DNA of 37,605 nucleotides from an uncultured Nitratifractor sp. (GTDB lineage: Bacteria; Campylobacterota; Campylobacteria; Campylobacterales; Sulfurovaceae): positions 1-37,605 of the forward strand of contig CAMZLH010000055.1 of the NCBI GenBank assembly GCA_947311565.1, read 5' to 3'. This document shows positions 6,256 through 36,715 of the stretch, one piece after another. The notes under the pieces are model-generated. The model did not search any database and was not told the DNA's origin. It worked only from the letters and a program-made list of their open reading frames with translations. Numbering within the stretch: position 1 is the stretch's first letter; each line of letters opens with the position of its first letter. The position numbers and the translations under genes are program-made.

Positions 6256-7776
6256 GTGAAAAGTAGTAAAGGTTTTGTAACGATAGATAGCTATAACTCT
6301 CTTGTCTATAAAGTAGATAAGAGTAAATTCTATCTATCAACTAAAATCAAAAGATCTAAAAATGATATTTTAATATCTTATGTTGATAATAAAGATTTAA
6401 TAATAGATCCTGTAGAGCTTAGCTCTAATTTACCAGATGAACACTTAGATGAAATAATAGCAGACAAGGTGTATGAAGATTTACGTCTTGACCCTTCAGT
6501 TGAGTACTCAATATCTGCTATAAAAACTTCACTCAATAAAGATAAAACTAAGTACCAAGCAATTATTAACGATACTAATGCTCTAAAAGATAGAGTAGAG
6601 CCCATACTAAAAAAAGTTAAATATATTGATTATATAGTGCCAGCTCCACTACTTTATAAATCTTTATATCAAGAGAAACTACTTGATAGTAGTTTAACAG
6701 ATATGTTTATTTTCTTTGATAACCATGATACAACTATTACTTTCTACCATAAAGGTGAGTATATATACTCTAAGTCTATTAAGTACTCTTTAGAAAACAT
6801 ATACAATAGATTTGTAGAGATTATGCAAGATACTAAAGTAAGCAGAGATAAGTTTGTTACCATATTAAAAGATAGTGGGCTAAAGCATAGCAATGAACTA
6901 TATAGAGAGACTATTATTAAGATAATGAATGAGTGTTTCTTATCTATAAATGAAGTTGATATATATGTAAAAAGAGCTTATGATATAAAAAAGGTAGATA
7001 AAATATATATTGATTTTAGCTGGGGATATCTTGATGGGGTTGAGTCTTATGTAAAAAGTTATCTGAATTCAAACTCAAATACTCTCTCCTCTATTTATGA
7101 AGCAATGGAACCTAGTAGTAATATAAGTCCTTTTCACTACTTAATGTACTTGAGCGCTAATCAACTTGAAAGAGCTACCTTAGATATACCAAATTTAACA
7201 CCATATCCTAAGCCCAAACCATTTACTCAACGAATTGCAAGTAAATTGATTTTAGGTTTTATTTTAACAATTGCCCTATTTATGATACCTATAGTATATA
7301 GCTACTTTATTGGAATTACACTAAAGGGTCAAAATATTATTTTGCAACAAAAAGAGTATAAACTTACTAGAAGTGCAAATATATACAAAAAAAATATAAA
7401 GAAGAGAAGAGAAGATTTAAAGATATTAGAGAAAGAGGCAGAGAAAACAAGTAAACTTTTTAGATATAAAAAGAGTGAGCTTGCAAAAGTTTATAGTAAG
7501 AAATTTAACTATAAATTACGCTCCGAAAAATTAGCAGAGATTACAAATATATTTAAAAAATATGATATTAAAAGTAAAGAAATTAGAGTTATTAATAATT
7601 TATATACTATAGAAATAGATGCTGAAAAGGAGAAGAGTATTACAGCTTTTGTAAATGAATTAACAAATTACTTTAGAGAAAATATAGATAAAATAAATAT
7701 TAAAGAGATTATATACAGAAAAAAAGATAAAATGTATGAAGGTACTCTTGATATAATCTTTAAGGAGAATGTATGA
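6256..7776 (+). CDS. MshI/PilM-PilN-like pilus or secretion assembly protein
   Basis: First gene of the eight-gene pilus/secretion operon. The 506-residue protein has a soluble N-terminal half (1-325) that by position and shape corresponds to the actin-like cytoplasmic domain of PilM/GspL/MshI. One membrane span follows (about 331-354), then a coiled coil (about 365-425) and a small alpha/beta domain like PilN. Sequence similarity is weak to my eye, so the identification rests on topology and on the downstream genes. The expected role is linking the cytoplasmic motor to the periplasmic alignment proteins. The start is a GTG with TAGGATT upstream. The stop overlaps the next start by 4 bp. Confident it is real and part of this machine, less sure of the exact orthologue. 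Confidence 0.75.
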   Translation: MKSSKGFVTIDSYNSLVYKVDKSKFYLSTKIKRSKNDILISYVDNKDLIIDPVELSSNLPDEHLDEIIADKVYEDLRLDPSVEYSISAIKTSLNKDKTKYQAIINDTNALKDRVEPILKKVKYIDYIVPAPLLYKSLYQEKLLDSSLTDMFIFFDNHDTTITFYHKGEYIYSKSIKYSLENIYNRFVEIMQDTKVSRDKFVTILKDSGLKHSNELYRETIIKIMNECFLSINEVDIYVKRAYDIKKVDKIYIDFSWGYLDGVESYVKSYLNSNSNTLSSIYEAMEPSSNISPFHYLMYLSANQLERATLDIPNLTPYPKPKPFTQRIASKLILGFILTIALFMIPIVYSYFIGITLKGQNIILQQKEYKLTRSANIYKKNIKKRREDLKILEKEAEKTSKLFRYKKSELAKVYSKKFNYKLRSEKLAEITNIFKKYDIKSKEIRVINNLYTIEIDAEKEKSITAFVNELTNYFRENIDKINIKEIIYRKKDKMYEGTLDIIFKENV

Positions 7777-8408
7777 ATTTTTTAGATAGATTAGATAACT
7801 ACTACTATAGTAAAAAGCCTAGTGAAGCATGGATTATGATTATACTTGTAGCTCTATTAATTGGCTATCTACTCTATAATCTTATATCTGATATATCATA
7901 CGACTACAAAGAGAGACAGAAAAGTAAAAATGTAAAGTTGCATAATAATATAGATTTAGCTAATAGCTATTTAGACTCTATAACTATTAATGGTGATAAA
8001 AACTATACAATAAAAGAGCTAAATAAAAAAATAATTAACAAGAAATCAGAACTTAATACCAATAGAGCGAAATTGTCTAAATTGGATGGAGCATCAAGAA
8101 AATTAACTTCTGTTTTATACAATAATGTCAACTGGTCTATTTTCTTACATAATATTACAACAAAAGCTGAAGATAATAATTTGAAACTATATAATATTGA
8201 AAATAGAGTATATGACCAAAATGATAGCTTTGGAAAAGTTATGGATGTATATATTAAATGCAAAGGGGAGTTTGGAGAGATATTATCGTTTGTAAATGAT
8301 TTAGAGAGAACTAAATTAGTTGCAAATGTTTCTATGCTTAAACTTAAGTCATCTAGTAATAATCCTATTGCTGATATAAACTTTACAGTTTGGGGTATTA
8401 AACAATGA
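7773..8408 (+). CDS. MshJ/PilO-like inner-membrane alignment protein
   Basis: A 211-residue bitopic protein: short cytoplasmic N-terminus, one membrane helix (about residues 19-41), a coiled coil with many Lys/Asn (about 60-110) and a C-terminal ferredoxin-like periplasmic domain. This is the layout of PilO, GspM and MshJ, which pair with PilN/GspL-type proteins. It overlaps the upstream gene by 4 bp and the downstream gene by 4 bp, so it is translationally coupled on both sides. Name assigned from architecture and gene order. The sequence alone would not distinguish MshJ from PilO. Confidence 0.7.
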   Translation: MNFLDRLDNYYYSKKPSEAWIMIILVALLIGYLLYNLISDISYDYKERQKSKNVKLHNNIDLANSYLDSITINGDKNYTIKELNKKIINKKSELNTNRAKLSKLDGASRKLTSVLYNNVNWSIFLHNITTKAEDNNLKLYNIENRVYDQNDSFGKVMDVYIKCKGEFGEILSFVNDLERTKLVANVSMLKLKSSSNNPIADINFTVWGIKQ

Positions 8409-8827
8409 GAAAGAGAGTACTATTTATAATTCTATATATACAAGTTACAGTTGTATTTGGAGATGAGATCGATACAATGATTAATAAAATTAATCAAAAT
8501 AGAGATAGCAATATGACAAAATCTCAATTTATATCATTAGACTCTCCGATAAAGAAGATCTTTATTAAAGAGTCTAATAGCTCTATGGAAGATGGTAATA
8601 ATACAAATATAGCTATAGATAATAACTATACTCAATTAACATTAACTGCCATTGTAAATGATAGTGCATACATTAATAAACATTGGTTAAAAGAGAGTGA
8701 AGAGATAGAAGGCTATAAATTAATTGATATTATGGATGACTCAGTATATTTGGAATCTAAGAGTAAAAAGCAATTGATCTTTTTTAAAAAGAGAATTAAC
8801 AAAGTAAATATTTTAATAGATAGGTAA
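8405..8827 (+). CDS. Small periplasmic MshK/PilP-like protein (position of CtsR)
   Basis: 140 residues with an N-terminal signal peptide (hydrophobic residues 5-18, likely cleavage after VFG) and a small beta-rich C-terminal domain (about 78-138) resembling PilP/GspC homology regions: LTAIVNDSAYINKHWLKESE, then YKLIDI. Such proteins connect the inner-membrane alignment complex to the secretin. It lies just before the secretin gene, the slot of mshK in Vibrio and of ctsR in Campylobacter. Four bases separate its stop from the secretin start. The family assignment is by context, and the protein is short and diverged. Confidence 0.65.
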   Translation: MRKRVLFIILYIQVTVVFGDEIDTMINKINQNRDSNMTKSQFISLDSPIKKIFIKESNSSMEDGNNTNIAIDNNYTQLTLTAIVNDSAYINKHWLKESEEIEGYKLIDIMDDSVYLESKSKKQLIFFKKRINKVNILIDR

Positions 8828-8830
8828 ATT

Positions 8831-10345
8831 ATGAATAAATTTTTTATTATAACATCATCTTTATTACTGTCAATATCAATAATGAATGCAAATGTCTGCG
8901 AGAAACAGAACTTTTCAGTTACTATTCAAAAAGAGATATCTATCTCTGAAGCACTAGATAGCTTAGCTGATAGTTGTGAACTTAGTGTAGTTGTAAAAGA
9001 TGCAATAGCTCAAGAGAGATTAAATAAGAAACTCTACTATATTAAATTAAAAAACTCATCTTTAAATAAATTTTTAAATACACTACTAAGCGACAATGGT
9101 TTAAGCTATAAACTTAAAAATAATAAGTTAGAGATATCTTATTTAACAACTAGAACATTTAAAGTACACTATATATCTAGTAGTAGAGTTGGTAGTAGTA
9201 GTGCTAATATTAATATCGCAAATGCTGGTAGAGATAAAAAAGGTACATCTTCAAAAAGTGGAATAAGTATTACTAGTGATGATAAATTTGATTTCTGGAA
9301 TAAACTTAAAGGTGAGATTCATAGAGTTTTAGTAACATCTGGCGATGGAAGTATGCATTTTACTAAAAAAAATGGTGTATGGATTGACAATAAAGGACAT
9401 AGTTGGCAGTTTAACCCTTTAGAGCCAATTGTTGATGCTGAAGCTGGACTAATTACAGTAACTGGTACACCAGATCAGATAGAGAAGGTTGGACACTATA
9501 TTAGAGCTTTAGCAAAACAGATAAAATCTCAGGTTATGATAGATGTTAAAATATTATCTGTAACCTTAAATAATGATAAAAGAACAGGAATAGACTGGTC
9601 TCAACTATATGGTATGCAAAACTTTACTATTAGTACTTTAGCAATGAGTCAAAAAAATATGTCATCATGGAAGAGTGAAGATGGAAAAATAACAGATGCA
9701 GAGTTTGCTGAAGGAACAAGACCAAGTAGTGCAACTCTATTTGATGCTAGGGGTGCTAGAATAATAGATGATTTAATTAAATTCTTAAAAACACAAGGTA
9801 ATGTAAAAACAGTCTCTAATCCTAAAATAATGACACTAAATAATCAGCCAGCACTTATTAGTGTTGGTAAAGAGCTATTTTATAAAACTACATCAACAAG
9901 TACTACAAAAGATGGTAAAGAGACAAGTTCTACTAGAATTGACTCTGTTTTTGCTGGTGTATTGTTAGATATTACACCAGAAATTGATAAACGTGGTATG
10001 ATTACATTAAAGATTAATCCATCTATTAGTGAAACAGATGGTCCTATTGGTACAGAAGGAGCTCGAACAATGCCACCAGATTTAATTAGAAGACAGATAT
10101 CAACAGTTATTAAAGTTAAAAATGGTAAACATGCAATACTTGGTGGATTAATATCGACAGCAACAAGTAGTGTAAATAGTAAAGTGCCTCTACTTGGTGA
10201 TATACCAATATTTGGAGAGGCTTTCAAAAGAGAGAGAAAGATATCTAAAACTGAGGAGTTAGTTTTAATAATAACTCCAAGAATTACTAATGGTAGGAGT
10301 CATATTTCTCTTAAAAAACTAGGATATAGGAGTATTAACAGATGA
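8831..10345 (+). CDS. mshL: Outer-membrane secretin, MshL/CtsD type
   Basis: Forms the multimeric outer-membrane channel for pilus extrusion, secretion or DNA uptake. It has a signal peptide (about 1-20, ending NANVC), then an STN/secretin N domain (about 30-100: ISISEALDSLADSCELSVVV and following), a linker, an N1-like domain (about 205-260) and the secretin beta domain (about 320-490). The secretin signature VPLLGDIPIFGEAF and the ending ELVLIITPRI are clear. 504 residues, close to MshL. If the signal peptide ends at the Cys it could be a lipoprotein, but there is no strong lipobox. It overlaps the ATPase gene by 4 bp (ATGA). Confidence 0.9.
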   Translation: MNKFFIITSSLLLSISIMNANVCEKQNFSVTIQKEISISEALDSLADSCELSVVVKDAIAQERLNKKLYYIKLKNSSLNKFLNTLLSDNGLSYKLKNNKLEISYLTTRTFKVHYISSSRVGSSSANINIANAGRDKKGTSSKSGISITSDDKFDFWNKLKGEIHRVLVTSGDGSMHFTKKNGVWIDNKGHSWQFNPLEPIVDAEAGLITVTGTPDQIEKVGHYIRALAKQIKSQVMIDVKILSVTLNNDKRTGIDWSQLYGMQNFTISTLAMSQKNMSSWKSEDGKITDAEFAEGTRPSSATLFDARGARIIDDLIKFLKTQGNVKTVSNPKIMTLNNQPALISVGKELFYKTTSTSTTKDGKETSSTRIDSVFAGVLLDITPEIDKRGMITLKINPSISETDGPIGTEGARTMPPDLIRRQISTVIKVKNGKHAILGGLISTATSSVNSKVPLLGDIPIFGEAFKRERKISKTEELVLIITPRITNGRSHISLKKLGYRSINR

Positions 10346-11151
10346 GTTATTTCGATACAGCAAAAGAGTCTTTCATAGATGAGATTAATCTAGATACTTA
10401 TATTGAGTTACCAAGTGCTATTTCTGCCTACGAAGAGCTAGAGCAAGCTTTTGAGAAACCTTTTAAGCTTATGTTACTATATGGAGAACCAGGTACTGGA
10501 AAAAGCCTACTACTTAGTAGACTATATGATAAAAAAAAGTATCAAAAAGAGCTACACTATATAAACTCTCCACTTTTAGATGAAGAGGAGTTTTTTAGAA
10601 GGCTATTTGATATTCTAATTCAAAAACCTATGCCTAAAAATACAAAGGTAGATTTTAATACTTTTGTTGAATTTTGTAAGGTTATTAAGGGTCAAAGGGA
10701 GATTATTATTTTATTAGATGAGGCACAGCTATATCCTAAAAAAATTTTAGAACAAATTAGAATTCTCTCTGATACTGGTGTATTAAGATTTGTAATAGCA
10801 GTGCATAAAACAACAGATGAAGATATAATAGCAAAATCTCATTTTCAGACAAGAATATGGGGGAGTATTGAACTTAAAAATGCTACAAAAGATGAGCTTA
10901 AAACTTATATACATCAAAGACTCTTAAAATACAACCAATTTGAAATTGCAAACTTAATTAAACAAAAACATATTGACTTTATACATAAATGTACTAATGG
11001 GAATTTTAGAGCATGTGGTAAATTAATGTATACAACTTTTGAGATATATCAGTACTATGAGAAACATGACCCATCACAATTTAGTACTAATATGTTTTCT
11101 CATAAATTTATTGAAATGGCAGCAATTGCGATAGGAGCTATAGATGTATAA
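10342..11151 (+). CDS. mshM: ExeA/MshM-type AAA ATPase (position of CtsP)
   Basis: 269-residue P-loop ATPase with Walker A GEPGTGKS (about residues 48-55) and Walker B IIILLDEAQ (about 124-132), then RIWGSIELKNATKDEL as sensor-like region. GspA/ExeA and MshM proteins of this family help place or assemble the secretin. It corresponds by order to Campylobacter CtsP, an NTP-binding protein needed for transformation. No membrane segment or peptidoglycan-binding domain is present, so it should be cytoplasmic or peripheral, probably partnering the next gene's membrane protein. It overlaps its neighbours by 4 bp upstream and 8 bp downstream. Confidence 0.88.
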   Translation: MSYFDTAKESFIDEINLDTYIELPSAISAYEELEQAFEKPFKLMLLYGEPGTGKSLLLSRLYDKKKYQKELHYINSPLLDEEEFFRRLFDILIQKPMPKNTKVDFNTFVEFCKVIKGQREIIILLDEAQLYPKKILEQIRILSDTGVLRFVIAVHKTTDEDIIAKSHFQTRIWGSIELKNATKDELKTYIHQRLLKYNQFEIANLIKQKHIDFIHKCTNGNFRACGKLMYTTFEIYQYYEKHDPSQFSTNMFSHKFIEMAAIAIGAIDV

Positions 11152-11890
11152 TATTCCAGAACTAGAGAAGAAATGGCGTAAATATAAGAGAGCTAAATTA
11201 AAGAGAGTTATTTATATTTCGGCACTCTCTATATTATTAGTTGCAGGTGTAGCGACTGCCGTTAATACATATTTAAATAAAAAAGCTATTACACCAGTAA
11301 GTATAGTTAATAGTAGTTTAAATAATAGTAATAATACAAATATAACAAAAAATTCTCAACCATCAATTATAATAGAAAAAAATAGTTTAGATAGTAATGT
11401 TAATGCCTTAATTTCTACTCAGAGGAGTAATGGTAGTATAGATATAACTAAAGCGACTATAGTAAAAACTAATATCCCCGATCAAGAGATTAGAGTAATT
11501 GGTTTTAGCAATAAAGATAAGCAAGAGTTAAAAAAGAAATATGGAGATATACTACTACCAACTAATGCAACTCAAGATATTAATGATAGAGAGCATATTA
11601 AAGAGTTAGAGGATAATTTTAAAGATTCACAAGATCCAAATGATTCTCTAGAAATTGCTAAATACTATTATAAAAAAGGTAACTATAAAAAGTCTGAAGA
11701 TTGGGCAGTTAATACTAATAATATAGATGGAGATCTTGAGGATAGCTGGCTTATATTTGCAAAATCTAGGGCAAAACAAGGTGATAGAGTAGATGCTATA
11801 AAGGTTTTACAATCATTCTATGATGAGACAAACTCACTTAAAGCTAAAAAACTATTAAATAAGTTAAGACATGGTAAAAGTATAGATTAA
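11144..11890 (+). CDS. MshN-like membrane protein with TPR-like C-terminus (position of CtsX)
   Basis: 248 residues: a basic cytoplasmic N-terminus, one membrane span (about 20-43), a long Asn/Ser/Thr-rich periplasmic linker (about 44-110) and a C-terminal helical region (about 160-243) with TPR-like pairs (SLEIAKYYYKKGNYKKSEDW, then a second ~35-residue unit). Vibrio MshN is also a bitopic TPR protein, and Campylobacter ctsX lies at this spot and encodes a membrane partner of CtsP. Low complexity in the linker means the sequence evolves fast, so the name rests on topology and order. The start lies within the end of the ATPase gene. Confidence 0.7.
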   Translation: MYNIPELEKKWRKYKRAKLKRVIYISALSILLVAGVATAVNTYLNKKAITPVSIVNSSLNNSNNTNITKNSQPSIIIEKNSLDSNVNALISTQRSNGSIDITKATIVKTNIPDQEIRVIGFSNKDKQELKKKYGDILLPTNATQDINDREHIKELEDNFKDSQDPNDSLEIAKYYYKKGNYKKSEDWAVNTNNIDGDLEDSWLIFAKSRAKQGDRVDAIKVLQSFYDETNSLKAKKLLNKLRHGKSID

Positions 11891-11898
11891 AGTAAAAA

Positions 11899-13644
11899 AT
11901 GAATAGATATATAGAGTATTTAATTATTAATGGTTTAATCAGTAAAGAGGCTTTAATTAACTATGTATCTACCAATCCAAATAAAGTACTTAATTTAGGT
12001 AGATTACTAGAGGCAAACCTTATAGAAAAAGATAATCTCTACAACTATTTTATACAAGAGTTAAAAGATGGAGATTTAAAATTTACCGATATTGACAAAC
12101 TAGATAGAGAAGATATTGATGTAATAGATTGTTATAGATATATAGCAGATAAATTGCATATAGAGTATATTGACCTTAATAATAAAGAGATTGATATCTC
12201 ACTATTAGATAAAGTACCAATATCTCTATTAATAAAAAATAAAATAATTATTGTTGAGGAGAATGAGTTTCATATTCTTGTCATATTTTCTGACCCTCTT
12301 GATTTAGCGGCTCAGGATCTTATATCTAGGCGATTTAATAAAAAGATATTAAAAGTTGCAATATCAAGATTTTCTGATATTAAAGATAAACTACTACAAA
12401 TTGAGACATATGAGAGTTTAAAGGTATATGTAGAAGATATTAAAAAAGATTTAAATAGTAGCTCAGATAGTGATGAGGAGGAATCACCTGCTGTTCTTAA
12501 ATTGATTGAGTTAATTTTAAGAAACTCAATTGTTAGTAGAGCTAGTGATATCCATATTGAAGCTAGTGAAAAAAATACTATTGTAAGAAATAGAGTAGAT
12601 GGCATGTTGCAGCAAGTATTTCTATTTGATAAGATAATATTTAATCCATTAGCTTCAAGAGTTAAACTTTTAGCAAAATTAGATATAGCAGAGAAAAGAA
12701 AACCTCAAGATGGTAGATTTGGTACTACTGTACTCGATAAACCTTATGACTTTAGGGTATCTACACTTCCAACTCTACTTGGCGAATCTATTGTAATGAG
12801 AATTTTAGATAAATCTAAAGCTCTAATTGCCTTAGAAGATATGGGTATGAGTGATATTAGTTTTAATAATTTTAATTCAGCAATTAAGGCACCTTATGGA
12901 ATTGTCTTAGTTACTGGACCAACTGGAAGTGGTAAGACAACAACACTTTATGGTGCACTTAATGCAATCAAGAGTGTTAAAGATAAGACAATTACTGTAG
13001 AAGACCCTGTTGAGTACCAGATGGGTGGTATTCAGCAAGTTCAAGTTAATAACTCAGCTGGACTATCATTTGCTAGTGCTCTTAGATCTATATTAAGGCA
13101 AGATCCAGATAAAATAATGATTGGAGAGATTAGAGATAATGAGACACTAAGAATTGCTATACAAGCCGCAATGACAGGACACTTAGTTCTATCTACACTA
13201 CATACTAATGATGCCATATCTTCTATATTTAGAATGATAGATATGGGTATTGAATCATACTTGGTTAGTGGGTCTTTAGTCGCAATACAGGCACAAAGGC
13301 TAGTAAGAAAAATATGTCCCTATTGTAAAAAAGAGACAAAAATTAGCGCCAATCTTTTATATAGTGTATCTCCATACATTAATGAGGGGGTAGATATTAA
13401 GTTTTATAAAGGGGAAGGCTGTAGAGAGTGTTTTCAAACTGGCTACTTAGGAAGAGAGATGATTTCAGAAGTTTTAACAGTTAGTAATGTTATATCTAGA
13501 ATGATAGCTGCTGAAGCATCAAAAGAGGAGATAGAGAAACAAGCTAACATAGAAGGGTTTGTACCAATGTTTAGCGATGGTGTCAGTAAAGCTTTAAGTG
13601 GTGTTACAACGATAGATGAGATATTTAGAGTTGCAAGGTTATAG
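11899..13644 (+). CDS. mshE: GspE/MshE-type assembly ATPase (CtsE-like)
   Basis: Cytoplasmic hexameric motor that powers pilus or pseudopilus assembly. The N-terminal MshEN/T2SSE_N region covers about 1-150. It is followed by the catalytic core with Walker A GPTGSGKT (about 340-347), Asp box ITVEDPVEYQ, Walker B IMIGEIRDNET (about 407-417) and His box. The zinc-binding CxxC pairs typical of GspE/PilB are present: CPYC (about 473-476) and CREC (about 505-508). 581 residues is the family length. N-terminal MshEN domains in relatives bind c-di-GMP, but I cannot confirm the binding residues here. Spacing of 8 nt upstream and 3 nt downstream places it firmly in the operon. Confidence 0.95.
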   Translation: MNRYIEYLIINGLISKEALINYVSTNPNKVLNLGRLLEANLIEKDNLYNYFIQELKDGDLKFTDIDKLDREDIDVIDCYRYIADKLHIEYIDLNNKEIDISLLDKVPISLLIKNKIIIVEENEFHILVIFSDPLDLAAQDLISRRFNKKILKVAISRFSDIKDKLLQIETYESLKVYVEDIKKDLNSSSDSDEEESPAVLKLIELILRNSIVSRASDIHIEASEKNTIVRNRVDGMLQQVFLFDKIIFNPLASRVKLLAKLDIAEKRKPQDGRFGTTVLDKPYDFRVSTLPTLLGESIVMRILDKSKALIALEDMGMSDISFNNFNSAIKAPYGIVLVTGPTGSGKTTTLYGALNAIKSVKDKTITVEDPVEYQMGGIQQVQVNNSAGLSFASALRSILRQDPDKIMIGEIRDNETLRIAIQAAMTGHLVLSTLHTNDAISSIFRMIDMGIESYLVSGSLVAIQAQRLVRKICPYCKKETKISANLLYSVSPYINEGVDIKFYKGEGCRECFQTGYLGREMISEVLTVSNVISRMIAAEASKEEIEKQANIEGFVPMFSDGVSKALSGVTTIDEIFRVARL

Positions 13645-13647
13645 TCT

Positions 13648-14889
13648 ATGTATTTTAAAGTAACTTATATTTTTAGAGGAAAAAGAGAGACAAAAGTTGT
13701 TAAAGCAAATAATCAATTTGAAGCCTCTAAGTTGGTTAAACAAGAGAAGAGTAATATTGTAGTAATATCAACTGTTAAAACTTCTGAACCAATTGCAGAT
13801 AGTTTTAGTGGTTTTTCAAAGAGTTTTGAGACTATCTTTAAACAAAAGCTTAGCATAGATGATAAAATATCTTTTATAAGACAAACTGCGGTAATGACAG
13901 AAGCTGGAATACCTATACATGATGTATTAGAAGATATATCAAAAAATACAACAAATAAAACACTAAAAGATATACTTGCATCTATAGCAAACGATATAAA
14001 TGCAGGTAAAAGTATGTCACAAGCACTAAATATATATTATGAGCAGATGGGACATATTGTTATTGCTATGACAAAACTAGGTGAAAAAACTGGTAACTTT
14101 CCCGAGAGTTACCATAAATTAGCAGATATTCTAGAGAGTATTAGAGATAATAAAAATAAATTCAAAAAAGCTATGAGATATCCCGTTATGGTTGTAATAT
14201 CTTTAGTAATAGCCTTTGTTACAGTTATTATGGCTGTTGTACCTAAATTTAGGCAAATTTTTGAAGAGCTAGGAGGAGACCTACCTGTTGCAACAAAAGT
14301 GTTACTATCTGCAGAGAGTTTTTTTAGTAGCTATGGCTATTTAATTATAATATTTATAATGGTAGTAGTATTCCTACATAAACACTACTACAAAAATAAT
14401 AGAGATTATAATTATAGTGTAGATAGAATTTTAGCACATCCCAAATTTTACCTTATTGGTAAATTGGTATATCTATCTAATATATATAACTATACACTAG
14501 TATTTGGCTCTTTAGTAAAGGCTGGAATACCAATATCTGAAGCACTTGAGACATCAATTGGTGTAGTTGATAATTTATATATTAGAAAAAAATTAGAGAG
14601 TATTAATGCAAATATATCTAGAGGTGTCTCTCTATCTGAGGCATTAAATCAGACTGAACTATTTGAAAATATGACACTACAAATGATACGAGCAGGTGAA
14701 AGTAGTGGACAACTTGATAGTATGCTAGACAAAGTATCTGAGAGCTATAATATGAAGTTTCAATATCTAATAGATAATTTATCTGCATATATTGAACCTA
14801 TAATGATAGCAATGATAGCAGGTTTAGTGTTACTGCTAGCTCTTGGTATATTTATGCCAATGTGGGATTTAGGAAAAGTAGCAAAATAG
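13648..14889 (+). CDS. mshG: GspF/PilC/MshG-type inner-membrane platform protein (CtsF-like)
   Basis: Polytopic platform protein against which the MshE motor turns to add or remove pilin subunits. Two T2SSF repeats are seen: FIRQTAVMTEAGIPIHDVLE (about residues 75-95) and YTLVFGSLVKAGIPISEALE (about 285-304). Hydrophobic segments lie at about 177-200, 229-248 and 385-408. 413 residues is typical. It ends the operon: no pilin, prepilin peptidase or minor pilin gene follows. The region after the stop has a 7-bp hairpin (14902-14931) without a T-run and then the promoter of the next unit. Confidence 0.94.
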   Translation: MYFKVTYIFRGKRETKVVKANNQFEASKLVKQEKSNIVVISTVKTSEPIADSFSGFSKSFETIFKQKLSIDDKISFIRQTAVMTEAGIPIHDVLEDISKNTTNKTLKDILASIANDINAGKSMSQALNIYYEQMGHIVIAMTKLGEKTGNFPESYHKLADILESIRDNKNKFKKAMRYPVMVVISLVIAFVTVIMAVVPKFRQIFEELGGDLPVATKVLLSAESFFSSYGYLIIIFIMVVVFLHKHYYKNNRDYNYSVDRILAHPKFYLIGKLVYLSNIYNYTLVFGSLVKAGIPISEALETSIGVVDNLYIRKKLESINANISRGVSLSEALNQTELFENMTLQMIRAGESSGQLDSMLDKVSESYNMKFQYLIDNLSAYIEPIMIAMIAGLVLLLALGIFMPMWDLGKVAK

Positions 14890-27043: not shown

Positions 27044-28765
27044 ATGCAGCTAAATGATGTTAAAATATATGAGTACGACGCTGTTGTTGTAGGTGCTGGT
27101 CTTGCTGGTCTTGCAGCAGCTAAAGAGTTAAGCGAAGCTGGTAAAAGAGTTGCAGTAATTACAAAACTGCATCCTTTAAGAAGCCACTCAGGTGCAGCAC
27201 AAGGTGGTATTAATGCAGCTTTAGGTGAAGATGATTCTACAGAACTTCACGAGTTCGATACAGTAAAAGGTAGTGACTACTTAGGAGACCAAGATGCAAT
27301 TGAGTTTATGTGCTCAAAAGCTCCAGAGACAATTAGATGGGCAGAGAGAATGGGTGCTGTTTTCTCAAGAAATGATAGTGGTAAAATTGCTGTAAGACCA
27401 TTTGGTGGACAATCTAAACCAAGAGCATGTTATGCAGCAGATAGAACTGGTTTAACACTTTTACAAACAATCTATGAACAAGCTTTCCGTGCCGGCATAG
27501 AAGTATTTGATGAGTGGTATTGTGCAGATTTGCTATACGAAGATGGAAAAGCAAAAGGTGTAGCAGCATATAACATTAGAACAAGTGAACCTGCAATATT
27601 TAATGCTAAAGTTACTATGTTTGCAACTGGTGGTTATGGAAGAGCTTACAAGATTAACTCTAATGCTCATGCAAATACAGGTGATGCACTATCTATTTTT
27701 GCTCGTCGTGGGCTGCCACTTGAAGATATGGAGTTTGTTCAATTTCACCCAAGTGGACTTGGTGGGAGTGGTGTTTTAATCTCTGAAGCAGCAAGAGGAG
27801 AAGGTGGAAGACTATTTAACTCTGAGGGTGAGAGATTTATGGAGAAGTATGCTCCAAATGCAATGGAGTTAGCATCTAGAGATGTTGTAAGCCGTGCAAT
27901 TATGGAAGAGATTAGACAAGGTAAAGGTGTAGGACCAAATAAAGATGCTGTCTATATAGACCTAACTCACCTACCAAAAGAGGTTATCTTAACTAAATTA
28001 CCAGAGCTAAGAGACCTAGCTATTACATTCCTTGGTCAAGATATGCTTAAAGAACCTATTACGATAGCGGCGACTGCACACTACTCTATGGGTGGTATTC
28101 CTGTTAATATTAGATGCCAAGCAAAACATGCACCTACTGAACTAGTAGAGGGTCTGTATGCAGCTGGTGAGTGTAGTTGTGTAAGTGTTCATGGTGCAAA
28201 CAGACTTGGTGCGAACTCTGTACTAGAAGCACTATTCTTTGGTAGAGTAGCAGGAGAGTCTATGGTAGAAGATTTAGATAATATAGAACTACAAGCTGCT
28301 ACTAAAGATGATGCAAAAGGGATGATTGAACAGATAAATGGAATACTCACTAATAATGGTAATGAAAGAGTTCCAGCACTTAGAAGTGAACTTCAAGAGT
28401 CTATGACAATGGATGCTGGTGTGTTTAGAACAGAAGAATCATTACTTAAGCAGAAAGCAAAACTAAAAGAGATCTACGATAGATATAAAAATATCAGAAT
28501 CGATGATAAATCTAATACATTTAATACTGACTTGCAAGAGGCTGTTGAGCTTAAGCATATGATTGACTTCTCTATATTTATTGTAGAGGGAGCACTTGCT
28601 AGAAAAGAGAGCCGTGGGGCTCATTATAGAGAGGATTATACAACAAGAGATGATGAAAACTTCTTAAAGCATACATATGCTAAATTTAATGGCGAGTATG
28701 ATTTAGATATAGAGTATGGTGATGTTGTACTTGGTAAGTTTGAACCACAAGAAAGAAAATATTAA
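27044..28765 (+). CDS. sdhA: Succinate dehydrogenase/fumarate reductase flavoprotein subunit
   Basis: Catalyses succinate-fumarate interconversion. 573 residues with an FAD-binding GAGLAG motif (17-22) and His48 in [10 protein letters not shown] as the covalent FAD site. Catalytic and dicarboxylate-binding segments are [21 protein letters not shown] (split here as two adjacent blocks, about 236-256), [11 protein letters not shown] and [10 protein letters not shown]. There is no Tat signal, so it is cytoplasmic, unlike the periplasmic MfrA of Campylobacter/Wolinella. It is followed by sdhB and a CCG-domain sdhE, so the complex is the SdhABE type. In a reductive-TCA bacterium it would run as fumarate reductase, otherwise as succinate dehydrogenase. 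The sequence alone cannot set the direction. Confidence 0.93.
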
Positions 28766-28776
28766 GGAGCTCTAAG

Positions 28777-29757
28777 ATGGGAAATAAAAAAGAGATTACA
28801 ATAAAAGCATTCCGTTTTAATGCAGAGACAGACTATCTGCCATACTATAAAACTTATAAAATGGAAGTTGGCAGAGATGAGCTTATCTTAGACCTATTAA
28901 ATAGGGTCAAGTGGGAGCATGATGGAAGCTTCTCTTACAGAAGAAGTTGCCGTCACGGAATATGTGGTGCTTGTGCTATTACAGTTAATGGCAAAGCAAC
29001 ACTAGCATGTAAACAAAATGCTATGGATCTTGTAGAACTATTTGGCGATGAACTTATATTTGAGCCACAAAGTAAAAAAAGAGCTGTAAAAGATATGATT
29101 ATCGATAAAGGTGACTTTTGGGAGAAGCATGCTGCAGTTAAACCATATGTAGTAGCTGATGTTGATCCAAATCCATCTAGCGAATCTACTATGAGCCAAG
29201 AGCAAGTAGAGCAGTTTTTAGATGCAGACTACTGTATTCAGTGTGGTGCTTGTCACTATGCATGTCCTGTAGTAGAAGTTAATGAAGAGTACTTTGGACC
29301 AGCAGCATTTGCAGCAGCTTATAGATTTAGTGTTGATCCAAGAGATAATGCTAGTAAAGATAGACTAGAAGCAACAGCAGAGATGGGTCCAGGTGTTTGG
29401 GATTGTGTTAAGTGTTTTGAGTGTGCAGAGGCTTGTCCTAAAGATGTTAATCCAATTGAAAAGATTACAAAACTTCACAATATGCAGTTCGAGCAAGGTG
29501 TAGCAAAAAGAAATGTTGCAACTAAACATGCAGAAGGGTTTATTAGATCGATTAAGAAGTTTGGTTACTTAGATGAACAAGATATTGTTCTATACTCTGA
29601 AGGGCTTGGAGTTGTTAAACACTTAAGTGAAGCATTTAAAATGATTAAAGCAGGAAAAGTGCATCCATTTGATGTTATGAAGAAAAAGATGCCAAGAAGT
29701 AAGAATTTAGATGAGATTCAGAAGCTTATCGAGATATCACAAAAGAATGAACTATAA
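28777..29757 (+). CDS. sdhB: Succinate dehydrogenase/fumarate reductase iron-sulfur subunit
   Basis: Electron-transfer subunit of 326 residues, longer than the usual 240-250. [2Fe-2S] ligands are Cys58, Cys63, Cys66 and Cys78 (SCRHGICGAC). Two four-Cys sets follow, CIQCGACHYAC (Cys153, 156, 159 and 163) and CVKCFECAEAC (Cys210, 213, 216 and 220). Each keeps all four Cys, a pattern fitting two [4Fe-4S] clusters, whereas classical SdhB has one [4Fe-4S] and one [3Fe-4S]. The last 90 residues are an added helical tail that may contact SdhE. AAGGAG precedes the ATG, 11 nt after sdhA. Confidence 0.93.
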   Translation: MGNKKEITIKAFRFNAETDYLPYYKTYKMEVGRDELILDLLNRVKWEHDGSFSYRRSCRHGICGACAITVNGKATLACKQNAMDLVELFGDELIFEPQSKKRAVKDMIIDKGDFWEKHAAVKPYVVADVDPNPSSESTMSQEQVEQFLDADYCIQCGACHYACPVVEVNEEYFGPAAFAAAYRFSVDPRDNASKDRLEATAEMGPGVWDCVKCFECAEACPKDVNPIEKITKLHNMQFEQGVAKRNVATKHAEGFIRSIKKFGYLDEQDIVLYSEGLGVVKHLSEAFKMIKAGKVHPFDVMKKKMPRSKNLDEIQKLIEISQKNEL

Positions 29758-29768
29758 AGGGGCGCGAT

Positions 29769-30650
29769 ATGAGTAACTTAAAATATGCACTATATACTGG
29801 ATGTACAGCAAGAGAGTCAACGCCTGAGCTTCTATCTTCGACTATGGCAGTAGCTAAGAAGCTTGGAATAGAACTTATACTATTAGATGAAGCAAGTTGT
29901 TGTGGCGCAAGCCATCTGCAAGATTTTGATGATTTTTTGTCTTTAGTTTTAAATGCTAGAAATATATGCTATGCAGAAAAACTTGGGCTAGATATGGTAA
30001 CTATCTGTAATACTTGTCAGCTAAACTCTGCAATGACAAAAGAGCGTTTAGATAGTGATCCAGAGCTTAAAGCGAAAGTAAATGAAAAATTAGCAGAGGT
30101 AGGTTTAGAGTACAAAGGAACTAGCAGAGTTAGACACTTTCAGTATGCACTTATCGAAGATTATGGTTTAGATAATTTATCTGCTAAAGTAGAAAAACCA
30201 CTTAGTCACTTTAATATTGCACCATTTTATGGATGTCATAATATTAGACCAAGCGAACTACACCATGAAGTAAATGGTGGCGAAAACCCATATGCTCCAA
30301 CATCTTTAGATGACTTAATAGAAGCACTAGAAGGAAATAGTGTAGATTATGAAAGTAAAAATAAGTGTTGTGGATTCCATGTAGATCTACAAGCTCCAAA
30401 AACATCTAATGCCTTAAGTGGAACTGCACTTGTAGATGCAATCGATAACAATGCAGATTTAATGGTTACACCATGCCCACTTTGTCAGCTAAATATGGAT
30501 TTAAAACAAGATAGCGCAGGTAAACAATTAGGTAGAGAGATCGATCTACCAGTACTACACCTACCACAAATGATTGCATTAGCACTTGGCTGTAGCGCAG
30601 AAGAGATTGGCTTAAAGTTCAATGTAACTAAAGCAACAGAGTTAATATAA
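29769..30650 (+). CDS. SdhE-type CCG-domain subunit (heterodisulfide reductase B-like)
   Basis: 293 residues with two cysteine-rich CCG domains. The first has Cys12, Cys44-Cys45 (SCCGAS) and Cys80/Cys83 (CNTC). The second has Cys156, Cys200-Cys201 (KCCGFH) and Cys236/Cys239 (CPLC). Such HdrB-like subunits replace the heme-b membrane anchor in non-classical SdhABE/MfrABE enzymes and mediate quinone or thiol electron transfer. There is no membrane span, so attachment would be by an amphipathic surface. AAGGGG precedes the ATG, 11 nt after sdhB. This 'SdhE' is not the FAD-assembly factor of the same name. Confidence 0.9.
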   Translation: MSNLKYALYTGCTARESTPELLSSTMAVAKKLGIELILLDEASCCGASHLQDFDDFLSLVLNARNICYAEKLGLDMVTICNTCQLNSAMTKERLDSDPELKAKVNEKLAEVGLEYKGTSRVRHFQYALIEDYGLDNLSAKVEKPLSHFNIAPFYGCHNIRPSELHHEVNGGENPYAPTSLDDLIEALEGNSVDYESKNKCCGFHVDLQAPKTSNALSGTALVDAIDNNADLMVTPCPLCQLNMDLKQDSAGKQLGREIDLPVLHLPQMIALALGCSAEEIGLKFNVTKATELI

Positions 30651-31953: not shown

Positions 31954-33165
31954 TTGGCTCATAAACTACCACTTTACTATCCTCTTATAAAAACAAAAAG
32001 AGAACCCATAAAAGATGATGACTTTTGGGATAGAGCAGAGGAGCTTTTTGACAATAAAAATTATAAGAGTTCTATAATAGAGACTCTTAATTATGCAAAT
32101 AAAGATATTTTAAAAGGCGCTAATTTAAAAAAAAATATTGATATAAGCAAAATACATGGGGCTATAGAGGTAAATATAAAAATAGATAAAAAAAACTTTT
32201 CTATATCTACAAAAATAGCAAAAATTGATCAAGATAGTGCTACTACACCTCTACTAAGGAGAGTAGCCGAAATTAACTTTAGCGCCTTAGATTTTGCTCA
32301 AATAAGATTTAAAGATAATCTTCTATATATAGACTATGTAGAGCCTATAGAGCTATGTAGTCCACGAAAAGTGAATTATGTACTACAAGAGATACTATTT
32401 AATGCTGATGAGTTCTATAATGAGTTTATTGAGCTATATGATGCTAAAGAGGCTGTTGAAGTTACTAAAGAGATATTAAACACTTCTCAACAGAGTAGAG
32501 TTATAAGAGATATTAGAGAGTATTTAGGTGAAGTAGATAGCTATATAGAGTATTATGAAAAAAATGATAAATCTAATTATGCATGGGATATTATTATAAT
32601 TACACTATATAGAATATCTAATATGAGCTACTTAAATGGATATATAAAGTATGAAATTATTCAAAAGATATCTATGCTACACAATAGAGATATCGATTTT
32701 CAAGATAGAATAAGTAGAGGTAAAATATATATAAATGAGCTTAAAGAGCTTAGTGATGATTATTACAAAAGTAAACTATACTTTAGAAAAGATATGGTTA
32801 CAATGTTAAAAACTAGTGATATAGATATTATTAAAGATTGGGTATCTGAATATAGTGATACACTAAAAGATATAGAAGAGAGCAACGATAACTTTGCAGC
32901 ATCTTACTACGCTTATGCAATGTTTTTAAGATTAATATACAACTATAACATTAGTCGAAGGCAAAGAGGAGAAATAGAGACTCTATTAGAGAAGATATCA
33001 AGAAAAGATATAAATAGTGCCAAAGATAAATTAATTACACTACACAATCAATTTATTAATAAAAAGATAGAAGATAAAGATGGGTTTATATTTAGCTACT
33101 CAAACATCTTTTGGATTTCTATTTCGGTAGTAATACTACTTAAGTTTATAGTAAGTATATTTTAA
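31954..33165 (+). CDS. Tail-anchored protein of unknown function, partner of the protease gene
   Basis: I do not recognise a named family. 403 residues: a short helix (about 20-55), a beta-rich region (about 65-135) followed by an amphipathic helix (VNYVLQEILFNADEFYNEFIELY, about 139-161) that resembles YbjN/type-III-chaperone-like folds, then a long, mostly helical charged region (165-375). The only membrane span is at the extreme C-terminus (about 383-403), so the bulk should face the cytoplasm. The start is a TTG with AGGGA about 7 nt upstream, and no in-frame ATG is available. The protease gene starts 11 nt after its stop, so the two form a pair. It may hold the protease at the membrane (inference). 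Confidence 0.7.
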   Translation: MAHKLPLYYPLIKTKREPIKDDDFWDRAEELFDNKNYKSSIIETLNYANKDILKGANLKKNIDISKIHGAIEVNIKIDKKNFSISTKIAKIDQDSATTPLLRRVAEINFSALDFAQIRFKDNLLYIDYVEPIELCSPRKVNYVLQEILFNADEFYNEFIELYDAKEAVEVTKEILNTSQQSRVIRDIREYLGEVDSYIEYYEKNDKSNYAWDIIIITLYRISNMSYLNGYIKYEIIQKISMLHNRDIDFQDRISRGKIYINELKELSDDYYKSKLYFRKDMVTMLKTSDIDIIKDWVSEYSDTLKDIEESNDNFAASYYAYAMFLRLIYNYNISRRQRGEIETLLEKISRKDINSAKDKLITLHNQFINKKIEDKDGFIFSYSNIFWISISVVILLKFIVSIF

Positions 33166-33176
33166 ATAGGAAAAGT

Positions 33177-34259
33177 ATGGATTTAGAAAAATATATATAT
33201 AAAGTTGTTACAGGAGATGGTTCTGGAACTGGTTTTATTATTGATGGTTACGACTATATAGTTACAAATTTCCATGTTATCTCTGGTTTTAGAGAGGTAT
33301 TTATAGAGACTAATAGTAAAGATAGATATTTAGCAGAAGTTGTTATGGTAAATAAAGAGGCAGATTTAGCATTTTTAATCTCTAGAGATATGCCAAAAAT
33401 TGATAGTACTATTAAAATAAACAAAAATTTAGATATTAAAAAGCAACAAGTGGTAAATATTGCTGGTTTCCCTTTTGGTATGCCTTTAACCATTACAGAA
33501 GGGATTATATCTTCTGTAAATCAGGTTATGGATAATAGAAAATATATACAAACAGATGCGGCTATAAATAGTGGCAACTCTGGTGGACCAATGATAGATA
33601 AGAGTGGCTCACTAATTGCAGTTGTTAATGCTAAATTTAATAATGCTGATAATGTAGGTTTTGGTATACCCTACCAAGAGTTACTATATGAGTTAGAAAA
33701 CTATAAATTTAGTGAATATATTTTTCGTGTAAAGTGTGATACTTGTGATAACTATATAGAGAATAAGAGTAAGTATTGCAATAGCTGTGGTAACAAAATA
33801 GATGAGACAATTTTTATGGATAAAAGTAACGATAAAGTCTCTACACTAAGTAAGGTAATAAATAGAGCTATAGTAAAAGCGGGCTATAACCCAAAATTAT
33901 GTAAAGTAGGCAAAGAGTACTGGGAGTTTTATCCAAAATCTAATGTAGTACGTTTTTTTGAAAGAGATGACTATACATTCTATGCAAATGCACCACTATG
34001 TAATGTACCAAAAGAGAACTTAAAGAGAGTATTAGAGATAATAAATTCAGATAAATTTAGCCCCTACTCTCTTGGAATATATAGAACAAATAATACAATA
34101 TGTCTATACTATAGAGTATACCAATCAGATATACACAATGAAGAGTATCAAGAAGAGATAGAAGATAACTTCTCGAAATTTATAGCAAAATCTATTGAGC
34201 TAAGTGAATACTTTATATCTGAGTTTAATAGCGAAGTTGCTCTAAGTTCTAAAATTTAA
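33177..34259 (+). CDS. Cytoplasmic trypsin-like serine protease with zinc ribbon and YbjN-like C-terminal domain
   Basis: 360 residues in three parts. Residues 1-175 are a chymotrypsin-fold (S1C/HtrA-like) protease with an intact triad: His33 (VTNFHVISG), Asp63 (EADLAFL) and Ser135 (NSGNSGGPM). Residues 185-207 form a zinc ribbon with Cys187, Cys190, Cys201 and Cys204 (CDTC..CNSC). Residues 225-350 are an alpha/beta domain resembling YbjN or type III secretion chaperones (KVGKEYWEFYPKSN, VVRFFERDDYTFYANAPL, then a C-terminal helix). There is no signal peptide and no PDZ domain, so unlike DegP/HtrA it should work in the cytoplasm. AGGA precedes the ATG. The upstream gene is a tail-anchored protein. 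Target and trigger unknown. Confidence 0.85.
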   Translation: MDLEKYIYKVVTGDGSGTGFIIDGYDYIVTNFHVISGFREVFIETNSKDRYLAEVVMVNKEADLAFLISRDMPKIDSTIKINKNLDIKKQQVVNIAGFPFGMPLTITEGIISSVNQVMDNRKYIQTDAAINSGNSGGPMIDKSGSLIAVVNAKFNNADNVGFGIPYQELLYELENYKFSEYIFRVKCDTCDNYIENKSKYCNSCGNKIDETIFMDKSNDKVSTLSKVINRAIVKAGYNPKLCKVGKEYWEFYPKSNVVRFFERDDYTFYANAPLCNVPKENLKRVLEIINSDKFSPYSLGIYRTNNTICLYYRVYQSDIHNEEYQEEIEDNFSKFIAKSIELSEYFISEFNSEVALSSKI

Positions 34260-35492: not shown

Positions 35493-35729
35493 ATAGAAGA
35501 TAATCTAAAAATAAAATTTAGAGCTAAACGAAAAGCTTTAAAACTAACTCAAGAAAAACTTGCCATCAAGAGTGGTGTAAGATTAGGCTCTCTTAAACGC
35601 TTTGAGTCTTCTAGGAAAAATCTTTGCAATCGCTTTTGAAGTTGGCTTTTGTGTTGGAGTGTTTAGGGGATTTTGAAGAGGTTTGTAAAGAGAGAAGAGA
35701 TACCTAAGAGTATAGAGGATTTGTTATGA
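35493..35729 (+). pseudogene. Frameshifted HTH (XRE/HipB-like) antitoxin or regulator gene
   Basis: Frame 1 from about 35493 reads KFRAKRKALKLTQEKLAIKS, then GVRLGSLKRFESS, a clear XRE helix-turn-helix. Reading then has to move to another frame at about 35613-35626 to continue TTG CAA TCG.. as LQSLLKLAFVLECLGDFEEV and CKER. It shifts again within a GA-rich tract (about 35690-35700) to finish EIPKSIEDLL and TGA at 35729. The reconstructed product resembles the small HTH proteins paired with HipA toxins. No ATG begins frame 1, so the start is also lost or non-standard. The restored stop overlaps the ATG of the next gene (ATGA), showing the two were once one operon. Confidence 0.75.
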
Positions 35730-36715
35730 GTGATATTGTTATTTATGAAGATGGAACACTTGCACTCAGTGCAACAGTTGAAAATGAGACTGTTTGGTTA
35801 AGTCAAAAGCAGATGGCAGAGTTGTTTGGCAAGAGCATTAAGACCATAAACGAACACATAAAAAATATTTACAAAGAGGGCGAACTTGAAGAGAATTCAA
35901 CTATCCGGAAATTCCAGACAGTTCAAAAAGAGGGAAAGAGAGAGGTTCAAAGAGAGATAGCATACTACAATTTAGATGTCATTATCTCGGTAGGTTATCG
36001 TGTAAAATCTAAAAGAGGAACACAGTTTAGAATATGGGCAAATAAGGTTTTGAAAGACTACATCATCAAAGGCTATGCCTTAAACCAAAAAAGATTACAA
36101 GAGCAAAAGCTACAAGAGCTTGAAGATACACTCCATCTCATCCGACAGACCATCGATCAAAAAGAGTTATCGGCAAATGAGGCAAAAGGTTTTGTGGAGA
36201 TAGTGAGCAACTATGCAAAAAGCTGGGCATTGCTTCAAGGTTATGATGAACAGAGCCTACAAGAGATAGCACAAACAAAAGAGCAAAAGTTTATATTAGA
36301 TTACGAAGAAGCCAAAGAGGCGATAGCAGAGCTAAAGAGAACACTCATAGCTAAAGGCGAAGCCACAGAGCTTTTTGGCAACGAAAAAGCAGGAGAGTTT
36401 AAAGGAAACTTGCTAAATATCTACCAAAGCTTTGGAGGAGTAGAGCTACTGCCATCGGTAGAGCAAAAAGCAGCAAATCTACTATATTACATCATCAAAG
36501 GGCACCCATTTAACGACGGTAATAAACGAATAGGAGCATATTTGTTTGTATTGTTCTTGCACAAAAACGGCATACTTTACAAAGACAATGGAGAAGCGAA
36601 GATAAACGACAATGCCTTGGCTTCATTGGCTCTGTTGGTTGCTACCTCTGCACCTGAGCAGGAGGATATTATTATTAAGTTGGTTATGAATATGTTGCTG
36701 GAGGGGAAGATATAG
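35726..36715 (+). CDS. RhuM-family protein with C-terminal Fic/Doc domain
   Basis: 329 residues. The N-terminal RhuM-type region (about 1-125: VWLSQKQMAELFGKSIKTIN, VISVGYRVKSKRGTQFRIWA) includes a KilA/HTH-like fold. A coiled coil follows (about 115-160), then a Fic/Doc domain with core HPFNDGNKR at about 260-268, keeping the catalytic His and the phosphate-binding Gly-Asn-Lys. Fic proteins transfer AMP or another nucleotide to target proteins, and Doc phosphorylates EF-Tu. The exact activity here is unknown. I see no separate inhibitory (S/T)xxxE(G/N) gene, though a site within the protein is possible. Codon use is more GC-rich than neighbours, and the upstream regulator is broken, so it is likely acquired. 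Confidence 0.88.
   Translation: MSDIVIYEDGTLALSATVENETVWLSQKQMAELFGKSIKTINEHIKNIYKEGELEENSTIRKFQTVQKEGKREVQREIAYYNLDVIISVGYRVKSKRGTQFRIWANKVLKDYIIKGYALNQKRLQEQKLQELEDTLHLIRQTIDQKELSANEAKGFVEIVSNYAKSWALLQGYDEQSLQEIAQTKEQKFILDYEEAKEAIAELKRTLIAKGEATELFGNEKAGEFKGNLLNIYQSFGGVELLPSVEQKAANLLYYIIKGHPFNDGNKRIGAYLFVLFLHKNGILYKDNGEAKINDNALASLALLVATSAPEQEDIIIKLVMNMLLEGKI

Follow-up and report, generated by a model that had tools for sequence, protein, structure and literature searches.

ATP-driven machines (Lon, Clp, HslUV and FtsH) are usually credited with the regulated breakdown of proteins in the cytoplasm of bacteria, and work on HtrA proteases centres on the periplasm. Class I chaperones of type III secretion systems (T3SS) are homo- or heterodimers. 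Proteins of the TY-chaperone/YbjN fold are described as binding other proteins specifically, with no enzymatic action of their own (PMC5398634), and TY-Chap1-3 sit in ADP-ribose-centred systems, in the account of which the words trypsin and protease are absent (PMC9503650). Trypsin-like peptidases, in turn, are known in prokaryotic conflict systems (PMC7159879). Hence, a cytoplasmic trypsin alone is not new, and what sets the locus presented here apart from the known cytoplasmic trypsins is its TY-chaperone pairing.

The locus lies in a window of 37,605 nucleotides, by which we mean the whole stretch of DNA analysed, and consists of two co-directional genes on the + strand at 31954-34259, 11 nt apart. 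The upstream gene encodes a protein that we call the partner and the downstream gene a protease. An initial annotation made from the letters alone had noted both genes, and its coordinates were borne out. The features are as follows.

31954..33165, + strand: partner, 403 aa, TTG start after AGGGA
32011-32457, + strand: partner N-terminal TY-chaperone-fold domain, residues ~20-168 (AlphaFold2, Foldseek, 2PLG E 3e-5)
Partner residues ~177-368, + strand: helical domain (AlphaFold2 model)
33097..33162, + strand: partner C-terminal hydrophobic helix (tail anchor), residues ~382-402 (hydropathy, AlphaFold2)
33166..33176, + strand: spacer of 11 nt, holding the ribosome-binding site of the protease
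33177-34259, + strand: protease, 360 aa, ATG start after AGGA
33177..33696, + strand: HtrA-like trypsin domain of the protease, residues ~1-173 (Pfam, Foldseek, alignment)
33735..33788, + strand: four-cysteine ribbon of the protease, Cys187/Cys190/Cys201/Cys204 (invariant in 39 homologues)
33828..34241, + strand: protease C-terminal TY-chaperone-fold domain, residues 218-355 (hhalign, 2PLG match, model)

No terminator-like site was found on the + strand between the two genes. At 26.8% and 29.3% G+C, the two genes differ little from the window as a whole (30.4%) and from the neighbouring genes (28.8% and 30.3%).

The protease matches Trypsin_2 in Pfam (E 8.2e-23). HtrA-type proteins are closest among PDB sequences (phmmer; best match plant Deg1, E 4.8e-22), and DegS-deltaPDZ is the closest fold when the AlphaFold2 model (pLDDT 89.2) is compared by Foldseek (E 3.6e-16). 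His33, Asp63 and Ser135 align with the HtrA catalytic triad and, together with Cys187, Cys190, Cys201 and Cys204, are invariant in 39 diverse homologues from two phyla, so both the complete triad and the CxxC..CxxC ribbon first seen in the single sequence hold across the set. The ribbon presumably binds zinc. The reported lack of a signal peptide likewise extends to all 39 proteases: neither a signal peptide nor a hydrophobic segment precedes the catalytic domain (0/39), and the protease is predicted to be cytoplasmic. A PDZ domain is missing both from the listed matches of the window protease and from the first 25 families of the 39 homologues, and the full-length HtrA NCBIfam model scores the window protease at 119.8 bits, far below the cut-off of 416.2. 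Identity as a periplasmic HtrA was rejected because signal peptide and PDZ are both absent. The protease has only one other match in the window genome, a distinct HtrA-like gene whose open frame spans 492 aa, and several loci from an early search, including G053, G057 and G039, turned out to be ordinary HtrA/DegS-type proteins. A C-terminal SHOCT-type domain is present on 5/39 proteases, having been gained by five from Bacteroidota (L066:1541-2794, L068:4471-5730, L069:4826-6091, L189:9310-10550 and L190:6960-8216).

The C-terminal domain of the protease and the N-terminal domain of the partner are homologous (hhalign probability 97.8%, E 8e-13), and the order of helices and strands is identical in their models. 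Searched against PDB sequences, the two profiles independently pick 2PLG (E 1.4e-5 for the protease, 3e-5 for the partner), a distantly related YbjN protein (PMC5398634). AlphaFold2 (pLDDT 87.9) gives the partner domain the T3SS-chaperone fold, and this domain combines the alpha-beta3-alpha-beta2-alpha arrangement with profile similarity; the protease domain, too, has both the TY-chaperone fold and the profile similarity. In Foldseek the best partner matches are 2PLG, ExsC, STM2138, CesT and SicP, with YbjN further down, at probabilities of 0.9-1.0 but with modest E values (6e-3 to 0.3). Matches of the partner to Arp2/3 subunits were judged to be chance helical matches, and a weak DUF7795 match below the cut-off was disregarded. 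TY-Chap1 of Pfam is matched by 17/41 diverse partners (best 1.2e-6), the window partner itself not being among them at the level of E 1, and the protease C-terminal domain alone has no direct Pfam match. Enterobacterial YbjN, as an alignment of four gammaproteobacterial sequences, reaches an hhalign probability of <1% with either domain, and PF10722 (YbjN) is weakly matched by 2/41 partners only. Since enterobacterial YbjN is unmatched, our claim is one of fold superfamily: profile comparison led us to reject membership of the YbjN family proper and to keep the fold relation. The resemblance to YbjN and T3SS chaperones that the initial annotation saw in both proteins thus stands at the fold level, through 2PLG and Foldseek, but not for YbjN itself, and its view of the domains as a pair, one in each protein, is upheld insofar as the two are homologous. 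Domain likeness and gene pairing together are far beyond chance, given the E value of the domain alignment and the conservation of the two genes side by side in both phyla.

This conservation was assessed with an alignment of the protease C-terminal region as query, because a partner-based search would bias the pairing count; a single-protein query gave no match in the scan of genome contigs, and the alignment query succeeded. It yielded 79 loci from GTDB genomes, in 77 of which the partner is directly upstream of the protease, while in the remaining two the start of the contig falls within the protease gene. From the partner side, the protease adjoins in 39/42 loci, a set that overlaps in part with the 79. 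In one Sulfurimonadaceae locus (L214:8916-13147) the partner is separated from the protease by two sensor-like genes of the opposite strand, and two Bacteroidota loci (L185:8188-9522 and L188:7454-8821) have a partner gene and no protease within the 17 kb fetched. No common third gene is found across 42 neighbourhoods. We are very nearly certain that the pair exists as a fixed two-gene module, and the proposed check on its conservation came out in its favour in both phyla.

Both genes are present in 4/12 genomes of the window's genus, and the partner in 32/397 genomes of a Campylobacterota sample. With a richer profile, the partner was found in 59/101 genomes of the family holding Sulfurimonas and Sulfuricurvum, which we take from the names to be Sulfurimonadaceae. 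The count for Bacteroidota is 15/395 genomes across the phylum (~4% of those sampled) and 16/299 within one family, where one of the 16 is doubtful (E 5.8e-4). Trees of the two proteins agree in a deep division into one clade of 22 rows and one of 17. Support for each clade is 100/100, and both phyla are represented in each, a pattern that fits transfer of the pair between phyla as a unit. Clade I comprises the window's genus and Flavobacteriaceae, and clade II Sulfurimonadaceae, G038 and other Bacteroidota. The exact placement of the window and of L204 is unsure because both are long branches.

The link to the membrane is more restricted. The initial annotation had placed a single C-terminal anchor on the upstream gene, and the window partner does end in one strongly hydrophobic segment (Kyte-Doolittle 19-residue mean 2.55 from residue 385). 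Such a helix at the extreme C-terminus is found in the window partner and its three congeners (4/4), but in 0/28 partners of other Campylobacterota and in 0/37 other partners of the wider set. As the anchor is confined to the window's genus among the sequences examined, holding the protease at the inner membrane, as was originally envisaged for the pair, is not a general rule. A GFFSKLF-like motif forms the C-terminal end of 12 clade I Bacteroidota partners (0/411 neighbouring proteins), and many clade II partners have a short aromatic N-terminal stretch, for which a loose pattern gives a weak signal (13/42 against a background of 66/411).

A different kind of possible membrane link appears in L190, where the gene immediately before that of the partner encodes a Band_7_1 SPFH protein with SHOCT, and where the protease also ends in SHOCT; in L066 the upstream gene ends in SHOCT, following the same pattern. 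This arrangement is suggestive of membrane-proximal work, not as a general rule: SPFH adjacency is seen in 2/42 loci only, 7/14 genomes carrying the pair have no Band_7_1 match, and one further genome has its SPFH cluster on a different contig from the pair. A partnership with SPFH proteins as a rule is thus unsupported by adjacency or genome content. In the window genome, Band_7_1 genes are present elsewhere and not near the pair; one of them, with a GYF-like C-terminus, adjoins a TelA-like gene on another contig (L223:1273-3300, contig C12; names read from sequence).

The pair is surrounded in the window by genes for RlmI- and RsmB/F-like methyltransferases and by a succinate dehydrogenase/fumarate reductase-like operon. 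The latter (27044-30650) has flavoprotein and iron-sulfur genes followed by a gene for a 293-aa CCG-type cysteine-motif protein and resembles a non-classical SdhE-type operon; further away, a type IV pilus/type II secretion-like cluster (6256-14889) includes PilM/GspL-like, secretin, AAA ATPase, GspE- and GspF-like genes (both assignments as read from the letters). About 1.5 kb downstream of the pair, a gene at 35726-36712 joins Virulence_RhuM (Pfam 4e-30) to Fic/DOC (9.5e-11). Apart from this RhuM-Fic gene, which is not part of the shared pattern in 42 neighbourhoods, no reverse transcriptase (RT) or other defence gene lies next to the pair in the window.

Scoring for defence islands had been proposed as a check, and when 130 neighbours were run through PADLOC the hits were few and generic (no family exceeded 4/130), which does not favour a defence-island location; DpdF hits among them are probably RecQ-type helicases. 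On the protease domain only, PADLOC finds a resemblance to RT-Protease_XI and, for 17/39 proteases, to LmuA, with neither the whole-system architecture nor the island context of these systems. No RT, LmuB, MoxR-vWA, VMAP, EAD or NucA neighbours were noticed, and the Pfam matches of the partners include no Trypco1/2 or MoxR-vWA family, provided that the library contains those models. Copies or relatives of the pair were absent from phage records, plasmid records and viral contigs. The anti-phage role suggested in the initial annotation is therefore unsupported, because mobile or viral copies are missing, the neighbours are ordinary and the prevalence in one family is high (59/101). Overall, the observations of that annotation are confirmed and its interpretation is partly supported.

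We see an even chance that the locus is a two-gene module for regulated cytoplasmic proteolysis in which paired TY domains guide the protease. This reading builds on the catalytic motif, the ribbon, the homologous TY domains, the near-obligate pairing and the lineage-limited anchor, as established by sequence comparison. In the protease, an HtrA/S1C-type catalytic domain is combined with a ribbon and a TY-chaperone domain in place of the usual PDZ, and the obligate partner contains a second TY-family domain and a helical domain. By analogy with class I T3SS chaperones, the TY domains of the two proteins may pair with each other, bind peptide segments of client proteins, and either present these segments to the active site or gate it. 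The tail helix of the partner would hold such a complex at the inner membrane in the window's genus; other lineages lack this helix. The role of the module would be in housekeeping or stress rather than defence. Several findings count against this reading: the anchor is missing outside the window's genus, an SPFH neighbour is rare and in one further genome lies on another contig, the C-terminal protease domain has no Pfam match of its own, and L185 and L188 have a partner with no protease adjacent. A more specific formulation is tentative and, in our estimate, falls somewhat short of an even chance: ATP-independent cytoplasmic proteolysis of an undescribed kind, by a PDZ-less HtrA-like protease whose substrates are chosen by a TY-domain heterodimer, to which the protease and an obligate partner contribute one TY domain each, the partner being able to place the complex at the membrane.

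The partner could instead be chiefly an inhibitor or safety catch until stress disturbs the complex, in a toxin-antitoxin-like or abortive, possibly anti-phage, arrangement. Its gene comes first, the protease never occurs without it where the contig permitted the test, and partners without an adjacent protease exist (L185 and L188), all of which speaks for this alternative; trypsin-like proteases are also known components of conflict systems (PMC7159879), and the protease domain has the RT-Protease_XI and LmuA resemblance given above. However, the missing phage, plasmid and viral copies, the ordinary neighbour genes with few and generic PADLOC hits, and the failure to notice an RT, LmuB, MoxR-vWA or EAD partner argue against it, as does the presence in 59/101 Sulfurimonadaceae with partly conserved neighbours, unlike the patchy occurrence of defence genes. 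We consider it unlikely.

An equally unlikely reading is a membrane-stress module in which partner and protease join an SPFH (Band 7) scaffold in a membrane-associated quality-control complex, like HflKC-FtsH or SPFH-NfeD. The L190 and L066 arrangements, SHOCT on 5/39 proteases and the Band_7_1 genes elsewhere in the window genome speak for it, and membrane recruitment of PspA in B. subtilis requires the SPFH protein YdjI (PMC8581546), but adjacency in only 2/42 loci, the 7/14 pair-bearing genomes without a Band_7_1 match and the distance of the window genome's own Band_7_1 genes from the pair weigh against it. Far less probable still is that the protease is a conventional quality-control enzyme of the HtrA/DegP type whose export follows an unrecognised route: although its catalytic domain is nearest to HtrA proteins, 39/39 proteases have neither a signal peptide nor an N-terminal helix, no PDZ match is listed, four-cysteine ribbons like this one typify cytoplasmic proteins, and a separate HtrA-like gene is present in the same genome.

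The initial annotation knew of no named system with this pair, and we likewise found no paper describing it among the open-access papers that we searched. If TY-guided proteolysis by the pair, which is frequent among Campylobacterota of the Sulfurimonas type and occurs in some Bacteroidota, is true, it adds an adaptor-guided proteolysis route, and the widespread but poorly understood TY-chaperone/YbjN fold gains a concrete, assayable partner activity.

Compared with the MoxR-vWA/VMAP and NucA-trypsin conflict systems with Trypco1/Trypco2 (PMC7159879), the locus likewise joins a trypsin-like peptidase to a dedicated neighbour gene, but here the partner is a TY-chaperone protein, and no MoxR, vWA, VMAP, EAD or NucA neighbours were noticed. 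The likeness to SPFH-protease couples (HflKC-FtsH, stomatin-NfeD) and to YdjI-PspA (PMC8581546) is found in some Flavobacteriaceae, where the pair has an SPFH-SHOCT gene beside it and SHOCT is also part of the protease; unlike those couples, the protease here is a serine protease of another fold, with the SPFH link in few genomes. With HtrA/Do proteins (S1C: DegP, DegS, HTRA2 and AlgW) the protease has the catalytic domain and triad in common, but it is without signal peptide and PDZ and has a four-cysteine ribbon, a TY-chaperone domain and a near-obligate partner gene. With the TY-chaperones (TY-Chap1-3, YbjN, DR1245 and class I T3SS chaperones; PMC9503650, PMC5398634) one domain of each of the two proteins shares the fold and a distant sequence similarity, whereas here, unlike in the described TY-chaperones, the domain is joined to a protease in one protein and to a helical domain in its partner.
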